Shown piece after piece: positions 15,635 to 57,540 of a stretch of DNA of 64,000 nucleotides. The position numbers and the translations under genes were made by a program. The stretch covers positions 2,232,001 to 2,296,000 of the forward strand of contig NZ_CP035806.1 of NCBI RefSeq assembly GCF_004208635.1, written 5' to 3'. Origin of the DNA: Leucobacter triazinivorans. GTDB lineage: Bacteria > Actinomycetota > Actinomycetes > Actinomycetales > Microbacteriaceae. How positions within the stretch are numbered: the stretch's first letter is position 1; the number at the start of each line of letters is the position of its first letter. The notes under the pieces were generated by a model. The model searched no databases and was not told the DNA's origin. It saw only the letters and a list, made by a program, of their open reading frames with translations.

Positions 15635-15853
15635 GTCATCCTGCGCGAGGAATGTCCCCGATCATCCTGTGCGAGGAATGTCCCCGTCATCCTGCGCGAG
15701 AAGCGTCCCCGTCATCCTGCGCGAGGAACGAGTCGCAGGATCCATCCCCTGCGCGAGGAATTTCCCCGTCATCCTGCGCGAGGAACGAGTCGCAGGATCC
15801 ATCCCCTGCGCGAGGTGGATCCTGCGACTTCGCGCAGGATGACCGGGTGCGAT
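15635..15853. repeat. Palindromic repeat array (GTCATCCTGCGCG family), cluster 1
   Basis: Copies of GTCATCCTGCGCGAGGAA begin at 15635, 15661 (variant), 15686, 15711 and 15768. The last two belong to a 57-bp direct repeat that also holds GAGTCGCAGGATCCAT. The array closes with the opposite orientation, GATCCTGCGACTTCGCG, then CAGGATGAC. It occupies most of the 304-bp gap between the transporter and epimerase genes. Members of the family recur near 21.7, 40.8, 57.5 and 63.7 kb. Confidence 0.88.
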
Positions 15854-19980: not shown

Positions 19981-21628
19981 TTACGACGACGGAACGGGCG
20001 CCGGCGGAGCGCTGCGCGCGGAATCGCCCGAGCTCGGGCTGCGGGGCTGGCTGCGGTGGTTCTGGCGGCAGCTCACCAGCATGCGAGTGGCCCTCATCCT
20101 GCTGCTGCTGCTCGCCGTCGCGGCGATCCCCGGCTCGCTCGTGCCGCAGCGCGGCGCCGACCCCAACGGCGTGGTGCAGTACGAGCAGGATCACCCGGAG
20201 CTGTTCCCGATCCTCGACGCGTTCCCCATCCAGGCGTTCGACGTCTACGGATCGGTGTGGTTCTCGGCGATCTACCTGCTGCTGTTCATCTCGCTCATCG
20301 GCTGCGTGCTGCCCCGGATCGCGCACCACTGGAAGGCCTGGCGGGGCCGGCCGCCCAAGACGCCCGTGCGGCTGCAGCGCATGGCCGGGTTCTCCGAGCT
20401 GCGCCTGTCGAATCCGGATGCGACGCCGGCCGAGCGCGAGGCGTTCGCCGCGCGCGCGATCGACGAGGCCGCAGCCGTCCTACGGCGGATGCGCTACCGC
20501 GTCGAGGTGCAGCGCGCCACCCGGCGGGGGGTCGAGGAGGTATCGGTGTCGGCGGAGCGCGGATATCTGCGCGAGACCGGCAATCTGCTGTTCCACGTCT
20601 CCCTCCTCGGGGTGCTCGTGAGCGTGGGCCTCGGCGGAGTCTTCACGTTCAACGGCCAGAAGGTGCTGATCGAGGGCGAGACGATGGTCAATCAGCTCAT
20701 CGACTACGACACGGCCACCTCCGGCCGCTCCTTCGACAGCTCCAGCCTCGAGCCCTTCAGCCTGCGCCTCGACTCGCTCGACGTCACGTACAACACCCCG
20801 GACGACGGCAACGTGCAGGCCATCGGGCTGGTCAAGGACTACACGGCCAACATGACGCTCATCTCGCCCGAGGGCGAGGAGTCGGGGCACATCATCCGGG
20901 TGAACCATCCGCTGCGCGTGCACGGATCGCCGGTCTACCTCATCGCCAACGGCTACGCGCCGAGGATCACGATCCGCAACGCCGAGGGAACCGTCGTCTA
21001 CAGCGAGGCGATGCCGTTCATCCCGCAGGACAATCTGAACATGACCTCGCTCGGCGTGGTGAAGGTGCCCGACGGGATCGTCGACGCGTCCGGCGAGCCG
21101 GTGCAGATCGGCCTGCGGGGCTTCTTCTATCCCACCAAGGTCGATCTCGATACTGGGGCGTACACGTCCAACTACCCCGACCTGGAGAACCCGGTGCTCA
21201 CCCTCGACGTGTTCGAGGGCGACCTCGGCATCGACCAGGGCATTCCGCAGTCGGTGTACGCGCTCGACACGAGCGGCATGGAGCAGCTGACGGGGCGCGC
21301 GGTCGACGTCGACTCCATCGAGCTGCGTCCCGGCGAGCAGGCGGAGCTGCCCAACGGCTTCGGCACGATCGAGTTCGAATCGGTGCCGCGCTACGCCTCG
21401 TTCGACGTGATGCAGAATCCGGCTCAGGTCTGGATCCTGGTGTTCGCGGTGCTGGCGCTCGGCGGCCTCATGTGGTCGCTGTTCGTGCCGCGCCGCCGCA
21501 TGTGGGTGAAGGCGCTGCCGTCGGAGGACGGCCTGGTGCTGCAGTACGCGGCGCTGGCGCGGGGCGACGATCCGGCGCTGGAGCGCGCCGTCGAAGAGCT
21601 GCGCGACCGCCACCGCGAGCAGCTCTAG
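19964..21628 (+). CDS. resB: ResB-like cytochrome c biogenesis protein
   Basis: 554 residues. ResB partners CcsB/ResC in System II heme delivery to apocytochrome c. N-terminal helices include MRVALILLLLLAVAAIPGSLVPQ and AIYLLLFISLIGCVLPR. A third (ETGNLLFHVSLLGVLVSVGLGG) precedes a large extracytoplasmic domain, and a last helix (WILVFAVLALGGLMWSLFVPRRR) lies near the C terminus. The expected ccsB does not follow; a repeat array and an IS110 element occupy that position. Confidence 0.92.
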   Translation: MSRPSDYDDGTGAGGALRAESPELGLRGWLRWFWRQLTSMRVALILLLLLAVAAIPGSLVPQRGADPNGVVQYEQDHPELFPILDAFPIQAFDVYGSVWFSAIYLLLFISLIGCVLPRIAHHWKAWRGRPPKTPVRLQRMAGFSELRLSNPDATPAEREAFAARAIDEAAAVLRRMRYRVEVQRATRRGVEEVSVSAERGYLRETGNLLFHVSLLGVLVSVGLGGVFTFNGQKVLIEGETMVNQLIDYDTATSGRSFDSSSLEPFSLRLDSLDVTYNTPDDGNVQAIGLVKDYTANMTLISPEGEESGHIIRVNHPLRVHGSPVYLIANGYAPRITIRNAEGTVVYSEAMPFIPQDNLNMTSLGVVKVPDGIVDASGEPVQIGLRGFFYPTKVDLDTGAYTSNYPDLENPVLTLDVFEGDLGIDQGIPQSVYALDTSGMEQLTGRAVDVDSIELRPGEQAELPNGFGTIEFESVPRYASFDVMQNPAQVWILVFAVLALGGLMWSLFVPRRRMWVKALPSEDGLVLQYAALARGDDPALERAVEELRDRHREQL

Positions 21629-21643
21629 GCTCGGGCGGCGGAT

Positions 21644-21826
21644 CGTGCTCCTGCGCGGGGCGGGCGATCCGTCCTGCCCGGTCATCCTGCGCGGGGCGGG
21701 CGATCCGTCCGACCCGGTCATCCTGCGCGGGGCGGGCGATCCGTCCGACCCGGTCATCCTGCGCGGAGCGAGCGATCCGTCCGACCCGGTCATCCTGCGC
21801 GGAGCGAGCGCAGCGAGTGCAGTCGC
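21644..21826. repeat. Palindromic repeat array, cluster 2 (36-bp tandem units), left of the IS
   Basis: Four GGTCATCCTGCGCGG starts at 21680, 21716, 21752 and 21788 define an exact 36-bp period; a degenerate unit precedes them. The last unit runs CGCAGCGAGTGCAGTCGC and then stops at the IS boundary. Its expected continuation AGGATCCA appears on the far side of the element at 23235. Confidence 0.85.
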
Positions 21827-21871
21827 TGTGAGTCTTGGGGTGGCTGGTCTGGGACTGGCTGGCAGGGTAGA

Positions 21872-22085
21872 TATCGGCCGTTACTTCCCTGAGGGTGTGG
21901 CTCTCTCAGTCGCTGACCCCGGCCCGTTGTTGTGATCGGGTGGGTGTCTGGATCCTGATTTGTCCACCCTGTGGGCGGAGGCGCGGTCGGTGCTGCCCTG
22001 CCCACTCCAATGACTTGATCAGAAGAACGCCCGCCCCGGGTGAGAAGGGGTGTGGCTCGTCACAGTGTTGTCTTGGCGTGAATTT
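21872..22085 (+). ncRNA. Predicted IS110 bridge RNA with target and donor guides
   Basis: Two loops lie in the order known for IS621. Target loop: closing stem AGGGTG (21892-21897) with CACCCT (21965-21970); upper stem ACCC/GGGT (21916-21919, 21942-21945) and CCCG/CGGG (21923-21926, 21937-21940). Left guide CAGTCGCTG (21907-21915) is identical to the left junction 21820-21828. Right guide TGGATCCTGATT (21949-21960) is complementary to the right junction 23231-23242. Donor loop: outer stem CCAATGAC/GTCTTGG (22007-22014, 22070-22076, one bulge). Left guide AGAAGAA (22021-22027) equals the right IS end 23226-23232; right guide TCACAG (22060-22065) is complementary to the left IS end 21826-21831. 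All four guides sit in internal loops. Confidence 0.85.
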
Positions 22086-22150
22086 TCCCCAGGTCAGCAC
22101 CGGCCGCGTGACGGTCGGTACCGATCCTTTGGAAGAAAGACACCACCGCC

Positions 22151-23218
22151 ATGACTATTGTCGCGCATCAGCATCCGTATGTGATTGGGGTCGATACCCA
22201 CGCCCGTACGCACACCTACGCGGTCCTGTCCCCGCTCGGGGAACTCCTGGACATCGCCCAGTTCCCGACGACGACCGCGGGGATGCAACGAGCAATCTCG
22301 TGGGGTGCGCGCCGCACTGGTGGTGATCTCGACACGCTCTGGGTGATCGAAGGCACCGCTTCCTATGGCGCACGATTGGTGATGCTCGTCGCGAGCACCG
22401 GATACGAAGTCGTGGAAGCGCCGGTGACGCCTGGGCGGGTGCGGGCCGGGAAAGGGAAATCGGATCCGTTCGATGCCCGCCAGATCGCGGCTGCCGCACT
22501 CCCGCTGCAGGAGATAGAGTTGCGTCGTCCTCGGGCCGGGCACGGGTATCGTCTGGCATTGCGTGTGCTATTGACCGCGAGAGATGATCTCACGCACGAG
22601 CACACGCAGAAGATGAATGCGCTCACGGCATTGCTGCGAGTGCATGATCTCGGCATCGATGCCCGCCGCCCACTCACACGTACCCAGGTCGCACAGATCG
22701 CGAAGTGGCGATGTCGCTCGGAAGAGATCGCGCTGCAGATCGCGCGTGCAGAAGCTGTTCGGCTTGCGAAACGATTGAGCGAGCTCGCGTTGGAGATCCG
22801 TTCAAACCAAGACCAGATCCATACCCTGCTCCAGGCCACACCAGCGAGCGAGTTGCTCGAGATCACAGGAATCGGTCCCATCGGGGCGGCCGTGATCTAC
22901 ACGGCCTGGTCGCATCAGGGGCGGGTTCGTTCGGAAGCATCGTTCGCGGCACTGGCGGGGGTGTCCCCGGTTCCCGCGTCGTCGGGGAACACCGTCCGGC
23001 ACCGATTGAACCGCGGCGGGGATCGGAGAGTGAACCGGGCACTACATCTCGCCGCGGTCACCAGAGCGCGTTGCGACGAAGAAACCAAAGCATATATTGC
23101 GAAACGGACCGCGCAAGGACGCACCCCGAAAGAGATTCGCCGCTGCCTGAAACGCTACCTCGCACGCCGCGTCTACAAGATCCTCAACGCAGCAACAACA
23201 CCCCCGACCCCGAATTGA
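22151..23218 (+). CDS. IS110-family transposase/recombinase
   Basis: 355 residues. The N-terminal RuvC-like DEDD domain shows IGVDTHARTHTYAVL (first Asp), LWVIEGTASYG (Glu) and GKSDPFDARQIA (two Asp). A coiled-coil region (about 180-215) precedes the transposase_20 domain with LLEITGIGPIGAAVIY and FAALAGVSPVPASSGNTVRHRLNRGG; the SSGN segment is where the catalytic Ser lies. The C terminus RRCLKRYLARRVYKIL is typical. With the bridge RNA it should excise and insert the circular element. The ATG follows GGAAGAAAG. Base composition is less GC-rich than neighbouring genes, consistent with recent arrival. No frameshift is visible, so it may be active. Confidence 0.95.
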   Translation: MTIVAHQHPYVIGVDTHARTHTYAVLSPLGELLDIAQFPTTTAGMQRAISWGARRTGGDLDTLWVIEGTASYGARLVMLVASTGYEVVEAPVTPGRVRAGKGKSDPFDARQIAAAALPLQEIELRRPRAGHGYRLALRVLLTARDDLTHEHTQKMNALTALLRVHDLGIDARRPLTRTQVAQIAKWRCRSEEIALQIARAEAVRLAKRLSELALEIRSNQDQIHTLLQATPASELLEITGIGPIGAAVIYTAWSHQGRVRSEASFAALAGVSPVPASSGNTVRHRLNRGGDRRVNRALHLAAVTRARCDEETKAYIAKRTAQGRTPKEIRRCLKRYLARRVYKILNAATTPPTPN

Positions 23219-23248
23219 CAAACATAGAAGAATCAGGATCCACACCGC

Positions 23249-23272
23249 CGAGTGCGGCGTCGCGCGCACTCG
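23249..23272 (-). terminator. Hairpin after the CHAP gene
   Basis: CGAGTGCG and CGCACTCG form an 8-bp perfect stem with an 8-nt loop, about 30 nt past the stop codon of the minus-strand gene and just outside the IS right end. Confidence 0.5.
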
Positions 23273-23301
23273 AACCCGACGCGGCCCGCGCCGCAACCGC
23301 C

Positions 23302-23931
23302 TCAGAAACGCCAGACGGCGGCCTGGAAGCCCGCCGGGGGCGCTGGCGTCCAGCTCTCGTTCTTGCCGACGAGACCGGAGCCGCCCGGGTTGTTCGACTC
23401 GATGATGGTGAAGGTGCCGTCGTCGTGCACCTCGGTGATGAGCACGGTGTGCACGCCGGTGACCCACGAGGTGGGCGACGCGACGTACTCGTATTGGATG
23501 ACGTCGCCGGGCTCGGCCGCGGCGAGCGTCACCCGCGTGGCGCCGTCGTAGTTGGAGACGGGGTCGCCGCCGCCGCCCCAGTTGCCGCCGCCCGCGCGGA
23601 TCCAGCGCTGCGCCGACATGATGCATTCGCCCGGCTGGCTCCAGCCCGTGGGGCGGCTCGTGCCGACCTCGCTCTCGGCCAGCGCGATCGCCGCGTCGAC
23701 ATCGTAGCCGTGGGCCACGTGGGCGACGTCGTCGATGCTGAGCACCGAATCGATGGGGGCTCCGGCCAGCGCGTCGCCGGTGTCGAGGGTCTGCGACGCC
23801 GTCGTGACCGGCTGCACCGAGGCCACCGAGAAGTCCTCGATCGGGGCATCTGCGACGGCCGGGGCTGCGCCGAAGGCGAAGGTGACCGATGCGACCAGGC
23901 TCACTGCGAACGCCTTGGCAGATACTCTCAC
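23302..23931 (-). CDS. Secreted CHAP-like amidase/peptidase
   Basis: 209 residues from the GTG at 23931, which has GGAG 8 nt upstream; a TTG at 23958 would add 9 residues and has no such site. The signal peptide AKAFAVSLVASVTFAFGAAPAVADA is followed by an unstructured segment. The C-terminal domain has the CHAP-type triad in order: Cys in QPGECIMSAQRW, His in WVTGVHTVLITEV, and Glu/Asn in FTIIESNNPGGSG. Such enzymes cut peptidoglycan cross-bridges or stem peptides. The promoter with paired GTAAC boxes fits cell-wall hydrolases of the MtrA regulon. Confidence 0.75.
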   Translation of the reverse strand: MRVSAKAFAVSLVASVTFAFGAAPAVADAPIEDFSVASVQPVTTASQTLDTGDALAGAPIDSVLSIDDVAHVAHGYDVDAAIALAESEVGTSRPTGWSQPGECIMSAQRWIRAGGGNWGGGGDPVSNYDGATRVTLAAAEPGDVIQYEYVASPTSWVTGVHTVLITEVHDDGTFTIIESNNPGGSGLVGKNESWTPAPPAGFQAAVWRF

Positions 23932-40830: not shown

Positions 40831-40924
40831 GTCGTCCTGCGCGAAGTCGCAGGATCTCGATCGTTCGTTGTCTCTGATGCGCCGTTCTCCCCGAGTGGGA
40901 TTCTGCGACTGCGCGCAGAATGAC
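40831..40924. repeat. Palindromic repeat pair, cluster 3
   Basis: GTCGTCCTGCGCGAAG then TCGCAGGATC (40831-40856) and the inverted form GATTCTGCGACTGCGCG then CAGAATGAC (40899-40924) face each other across 42 bp, able to form one long stem. They lie between two co-oriented genes. Confidence 0.8.
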
Positions 40925-57458: not shown

Positions 57459-57540
57459 GTCATCCTGCGCGGAGTCGCAGGATCCATCCGCGCATTTCGC
57501 GGGAACGCTATGACATCAGGCGAGCCGCAGGATCCATCAC
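57459..57540. repeat. Palindromic repeat pair, cluster 4
   Basis: GTCATCCTGCGCGGAG followed by TCGCAGGATCCA (57459-57486), then a half copy GAGCCGCAGGATCCATCAC (about 57522-57540). It lies between hspR and the methyltransferase gene. Confidence 0.8.

Follow-up and report, generated by a model that had tools for sequence, protein, structure and literature searches.

A probable bridge RNA with covarying guides in an IS110-group insertion sequence of Leucobacter triazinivorans

The 5' non-coding region of an IS110-group insertion sequence in Leucobacter triazinivorans (about 21846-22080 of the window, i.e. of the whole 64,000-nucleotide stretch that was analysed) is very probably the bridge RNA of this element, used by the recombinase encoded just downstream. 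This assignment, made by comparative sequence analysis, is drawn from exact guides, a second copy of the element, empty sites, covariation between guides and flanks in relatives, and a covarying two-loop fold. An earlier note on this DNA had predicted an RNA-guided, DNA-recombining system; the covariation of guides and fold, together with an intact protein, supports that prediction, and the element appears as a well-supported member of the recently discovered class of RNA-guided DNA recombinases. Its crossover site is apparently shorter than in the best-studied example.

Results

The element, its recombinase and its target site

Positions 21820-21826, + strand: left half of the target, CAGTCG plus C, as read in the empty sites.
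Positions 21826-23234, + strand: IS110-group insertion sequence, delimited by a second copy with other outer flanks and by two empty sites.
Positions 22151-23218, + strand: IS110 recombinase, 355 aa, intact, with PF01548 and PF02371 above cut-off.
Positions 23215-23220, + strand: hexamer TTGACA, a possible -35 box that would be completed in the circle; it overlaps the recombinase stop codon.
Positions 23234-23242, + strand: C plus the right half of the target, AGGATCCA, as read in the empty sites.

The limits of the element fall at 21826/27 and 23233/34, giving a length of 1408 bp with a one-base ambiguity. One end C (21826 or 23234) is a target base, and the element can be read as TGTGAG...GAATC or as CTGTGAG...GAAT, with one C common to element and target and no target duplication. 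Length, shared C and absence of duplication follow from the second copy and from the empty sites L006 and L007, which read GCAGTCG-C-AGGATCCA (fuller reading GCAGTCGCAGGATCCA). The host genome is a single 3.48-Mb contig in which two full copies were found. The second copy shows 1 difference over 1427 bases, at the position corresponding to 21894, and its outer flanks differ while the target core is identical on both sides.

In the element, 325 bp precede the recombinase ATG and only 16 bp lie between the stop codon and the right end; the long non-coding region downstream of the gene that characterizes the IS1111 group is thus absent. Besides the guide match, no inverted repeats of at least 12 bases were found at the two ends (those of the IS1111 group are subterminal, 7-17 bp). 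TTGAC[AG] was present in 39 of 41 distinct right ends, and no clear candidate for a -10 box was seen at the circle junction. This junction had been given in the earlier note as AGAAGAA-CT-GTGAG, which lacks one T; the sequence gives AGAAGAAT-CTGTGAG.

The expectation of a single intact recombinase was borne out by a whole open reading frame. The protein has the DEDD (RuvC-like) domain and the Transposase_20 domain with the catalytic Ser that define the IS110 group of the IS110 family, and is homologous to the structurally solved IS621 and ISCro4 proteins. Residues D15, E67, D105 and D108 and the PASSGNT motif were invariant across 8 aligned proteins, and the DEDD residues and the Ser of PASSGNT align with those of IS621 (residue numbering of the latter inferred from a two-residue offset of the chain).

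The target belongs to a dispersed repeat. Within one mismatch of CAGTCGCAGGATCC there are 150 genomic sites (72 forward and 78 reverse), 18 of them exact, and the reversed-pattern control gave 0 and 1 sites (forward and reverse, respectively). GAGTCG is the form of most one-mismatch sites among the matches listed. Both insertions are at the CAGTCG form, as spelled by the guide, and a guide preference for this form, with two insertion events, is only suggestive. Within the 64-kb window the repeat has 10 matches at up to 2 mismatches (1.3 expected), with extra copies at 15730-15830, 40844-40911 and 57472-57535, some as inverted pairs. A tandem array of 36-bp units (21649-21810, 4.5 copies, 96% matches) lies directly before the element; by eye, its units look like the outer part of the target repeat.

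Relatives used for comparison

The recombinase was sought in three overlapping sets of 199, 398 and 396 genomes, of which 56, 23 and 37 had matches at E ≤ 1e-3, 1e-50 and 1e-60, respectively. We kept 77 fetched loci (62 distinct) with at least 44% identity to the window protein and both ends located by motif, and dropped those that were truncated or had other ends. Guide letters could be anchored in 60 of the 62 distinct rows (L114 and L116 failed), yielding 31 distinct guide pairs. A genome scan by protein patterns gave one relative. Plasmids gave 1022 records at E ≤ 1e-40, of which 4 had 60-80% identity; these records were not part of the guide tests. Clear ends were lacking in a more remote multi-copy group (five copies in G489), which was left out of the sample. 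Because the relatives share descent, the significance of all shuffles reported below is overstated.

One relative of the G169 type lies inside an ISL3-family transposase gene (L041:523-1089, PF01610, E 8.7e-37), and similar flanks were seen at copies in G201, G435 and G679, so that this gene, i.e. a gene of another mobile element, may be the target of the type. In the G561/G548 relatives (e.g. L106 and L094) a dispersed repeat of palindromic sequence, ACCTCGCGCGAGGT, serves as the target, and dozens of its copies are empty among the matches listed.

Target guides follow the flanks

Positions 21907-21913, + strand: left target guide, CAGTCG plus core C, equal to 21820-21826; in relatives left guides track left flanks.
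Positions 21949-21957, + strand: right target guide, made up of 8 nt complementary to AGGATCCA and a G that pairs with the core C, from guide/flank matches.
Positions 21958-21960, + strand: handshake guide of the target loop, ATT, pairing with donor end positions 7-5 (23233-23231).
Positions 22021-22027, + strand: left donor guide, AGAAGAA, matching donor positions up to 6 in the window element.
Positions 22060-22065, + strand: right donor guide, TCACAG, pairing with CTGTGA at the left end and its exact reverse complement in 34/34 distinct rows.
Positions 22066-22067, + strand: handshake guide of the donor loop, TG, facing target positions 7 (G, wobble) and 6 (C, Watson-Crick).

All four guide matches described in the earlier note are exact at their coordinates; the extent of the two target guides had to be revised. 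The nine bases 21907-21915 (CAGTCGCTG) do equal 21820-21828, but the part that reads the target is 7 nt (CAGTCG plus C), the following T and G being element sequence. Likewise 21949-21960 is the reverse complement of 23231-23242 over 12 of 12 bases, but only 8 target bases plus the core C are involved, the last three bases being a handshake stretch that pairs with the element's own right end. The lengths of 7 nt on the left and 9 nt (C plus AGGATCCA) on the right follow from the reading of the empty sites, and the division of the right match into 8 target bases, core and 3 handshake bases follows from handshake covariation in relatives. The whole 12-base match was rejected as a target guide: its last bases face the donor end and covary with positions 6 and 5.

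When 21835-22150 was dinucleotide-shuffled 20,000 times, CAGTCGC turned up in 336 of the shuffled sequences, the reverse complement of AGGATCCA in 215 and the two together in 10; the match lengths had been fixed with the match already in view, and the count disregards order and position in the loops. Among the 31 distinct guide pairs, left guides matched their own left flanks at a mean of 5.94 of 7 positions and swapped flanks at 2.85 (highest of 2000 shuffles, 3.77). The corresponding values for right guides were 4.55 of 7, 1.73 and 2.58, the first being slightly low because the score of L020, whose flank is one base short, was omitted with the divisor still at 31. Weak left-guide rows were L056 (1/7), L118 and L042 (2/7 each) and L062 (3/7); in L118 and L042 a register shifted by one base escaped the fixed offsets. 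On the right, L118, L088, L113 and L064 were weak (3/7 each), most guides matched 4-6 of 7, and the window element matched 7 of 7 plus one base more. Target guides thus pair with the flanks and change with them, and the outcome that would have spoken against a bridge RNA, the same guide kept at unrelated targets, did not occur among the 31 pairs.

These data also bear on whether the guide-like matches could be remnants of flanking target DNA captured in the 5' region, the target being recognised by the protein. Both copies in the genome do sit at the same type of site, as such capture would allow. Such an origin is nevertheless highly improbable, the matches falling in two fixed loops of a covarying fold, with the right guide reverse-complemented, and both guides changing with the site among relatives.

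Donor guides and handshake guides

Guides for the element's own ends were found in the second loop. The left donor guide equals 23226-23232 over 7 of 7 bases, and the right one is the reverse complement of 21826-21831 over 6 of 6, both as first noticed. In the window element 22028 (C) mismatches T7 and 22029 (G) opens helix 7. The agreement between the right donor guide and the left end holds through three sequence versions (18, 13 and 3 of the 34 rows); guide and end were searched with limited alternatives, the informative part being this agreement of versions. The left donor guide equalled donor position 5 in 29/29 rows (shuffled mean 10.4) and position 6 in 3/29 (shuffled 3.1), the window element being among the three. 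Position 7 was T in both guide and donor in 27/29 rows and is uninformative, because T is invariant in guide and donor. Donor guides paired with both element ends are therefore in place, as in a bridge RNA of the IS621 type.

Handshake guides, described for IS621 (PMC11208158), were likewise found paired with the other DNA. Of 29 rows, 28 had a Watson-Crick pair between the target loop and donor position 6 (mean of shuffles 11.9, highest 21), and 17 had one between this loop and position 5 (mean 8.1, highest 16). In the donor loop, such pairs were formed with target position 7 in 22 of 34 rows (mean 9.7, highest 19) and with position 6 in 26 (mean 8.6, highest 19).

A conserved two-loop fold

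Positions 21846-21856, + strand: 5' stem-loop, helix 1, with covarying pairs and 99.0% of cells paired.
Positions 21861-22002, + strand: target-binding arm, helices 2-5 of the consensus fold, placed in the window by alignment-column map.
Positions 22003-22080, + strand: donor-binding arm, helices 6-7 of the consensus fold, placed in the same way.

The two loops, target before donor and closed by stems, that had been proposed by eye proved to be conserved with compensatory changes in 26 relatives. Their consensus fold comprises 52 pairs in seven helices: a 5' hairpin is followed by a long target arm and a donor arm, each of which encloses an inner hairpin, and the guides sit in open internal loops. 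Over the 26 relatives and 52 pairs, 93.7% of cells were paired (shuffled mean 81.7), 41 pairs showed changes on both sides (22.9 when shuffled) and covariation was 0.454 (0.231 when shuffled); 0 of 500 shuffles reached any of five structure measures. When partners were slid by 1-3 columns pairing fell to 32-46%, a comparison that favours the real fold because the structure was derived from the alignment and then counted on it. Folded by itself at minimum energy, the window RNA has some of its left target guide in base pairs (read from the bracket string). Searched against Rfam release 15, region 21600-23500 yielded no hit with E up to 1.

A defunct element with a non-functional RNA is an alternative: the genome yielded two full copies, and the substitution of the other copy at 21894 would break one pair of helix 4. 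We consider this quite unlikely given the intact open reading frame, near-identical copies at two separate sites and exact donor and target guides.

Position of the crossover

The IS621 donor and target have CT in common, and cleavage of the top strand follows T9 (PMC11208158). A two-base core CT of this kind was contradicted here by junctions and empty sites: donor and target share only the C, and CT is not present in all four guide pairings. Insertion was sequence-specific and without target duplication, with one C between the target halves in empty sites of the window element and of two other element types. Those of G037 read ACGCGCA-C-TATTGC at 2/2 sites. Those of G561/G548, counted on both strands because they are palindromic, read ACCTCGCG-C-GAGGT in nearly all listed, with four exceptions among the matches listed.

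Of 55 distinct right junctions, anchored on ATAG[AG]AG only, 54 had TC at positions 7-8 and one had CC. The base after the C paired with the right target guide in 27 of 29 rows; target position 9 was A in 11, C in 9, G in 6 and T in 3 of the 29 distinct rows, G facing C having been part of the anchor for this count. In a relaxed survey, left junctions were CT in 40 of 48 distinct cases, and the other eight (GG three times, TC twice, GT, CG and AG) look like wrongly placed ends. At left junctions, the base before the C agreed with the left guide in 31 of the 36 cases that were informative; in the 24 with a guide base other than T, it followed the guide 19 times and was the donor T in none. At position 8 the left guide had C in 42 of 60 rows, T in 17 and A in 1, and therefore does not always spell the core. 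On the donor side, the helix 7 G of the left donor guide, where the core C would be matched, was paired in 26/26 relatives.

Inherited crossovers are placed on the single C because one C stands in the empty sites of three element types and in the junctions. The crossover would then lie right after this C, and a top-strand cut shifted by one base relative to IS621 is the simplest reading of the junctions. We tentatively suggest, as a possibility, that the bridge recombinase of this clade has a one-base core C, cuts the top strand right after it and leaves position 9 freely programmable via the right target guide. Equivalently, the core may be described as T in the donor, or any base in the target, followed by C, which amounts to a shift of the IS621 register by one position.

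A bridge RNA with the geometry of IS621 itself (core at positions 8-9, top-strand cut after 9), its unequal junctions arising from biased heteroduplex repair, is rather unlikely. It would accord with the mismatch repair in cells that is called possible for IS621 (PMC11208158), with the donor T9 kept in window-type elements and with the C found in 42/60 left target guides only, so that reading of the core C by both guides is not universal. However, this geometry predicts, on the top strand, a left junction with the target base at position 9 and a right junction with the donor T. The reverse is observed, in the predominance of CT at left junctions and in the guide-paired position 9, with its three T, at right junctions.

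Discussion

For the window element, we infer transcription, RNA-protein binding, circle formation and recombination as follows. The genomic target CAGTCG-C-AGGATCCA would be paired on its two strands by the first loop, and the joined element ends AGAAGAAT-C-TGTGA, again on both strands, by the second. After strand exchange, the handshake stretch in each loop would pair with the other DNA. The recombinase would excise the element as a circle, which would be inserted at a matching target without net duplication.

The clade offers a clean natural experiment, with one scaffold and protein clade carrying many guides at different sites, and it supports the rules for guides, handshake and fold outside the IS621 clade. 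A one-base core, if true, would widen the set of sites addressable by a bridge recombinase, and target choice would be less restricted than for IS621.

Comparison with known systems

Our literature search, the coverage of which excluded most subscription papers, returned no paper on the IS110 family in Microbacteriaceae. The ISCro4 recombinase (solved structure 9t56) is a distant homologue of the window recombinase and can be compared at the protein level only. The name ISAar29 points to an Arthrobacter host. This element, one of six for which a bridge RNA prediction with guides and core is drawn in PMC11208160, is alike in having such an RNA, as far as its figure legend goes. ISKrh6 of Kocuria rhizophila (PMC12500396) is also an actinobacterial IS110-family element; a seekRNA-determining region is marked in it by analogy, its guides and ends are not worked out in the accessible text, and it is compared by description only.

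The seekRNA of ISEc21 (Siddiquee 2024, PMC11187229), as far as the accessible part of that paper goes, shares with the window element an upstream non-coding location, a transposase in the 345-385 aa size cluster, a bottom-strand match 5' of the top-strand match, the absence of target duplication and the natural retargeting of a relative. Unlike the window element, it has another target and another host group, and that part of the source describes a 74-nt RNA with matches to the target, and no donor loop.

The closest parallel is with IS621 (Durrant 2024, PMC11208160; Hiraizumi 2024, PMC11208158), from the accessible parts of these papers: a 5' location, the target loop first, four guides reading both strands, handshake guides and a DEDD plus Ser recombinase. 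IS110 elements often target repetitive elements, as in the window, and some orthologues have longer right target guides (PMC11208160). The earlier claim of an IS621 architecture stands for the two loops and the four guides, but not for the core, of which one base is shared and which the left donor guide does not cover. Donor and target share C alone in the window clade and CT in IS621; a CT core in all four pairings is a feature of IS621 and its near relatives, not of the whole family. Position 9, an almost invariant T in IS621, varies here and is read by the right target guide. In contrast to IS621, the left donor guide of the window clade skips position 6 in 26/29 rows, a helix 7 G stands where the core C would pair, and the target-loop handshake may reach 3 bases.
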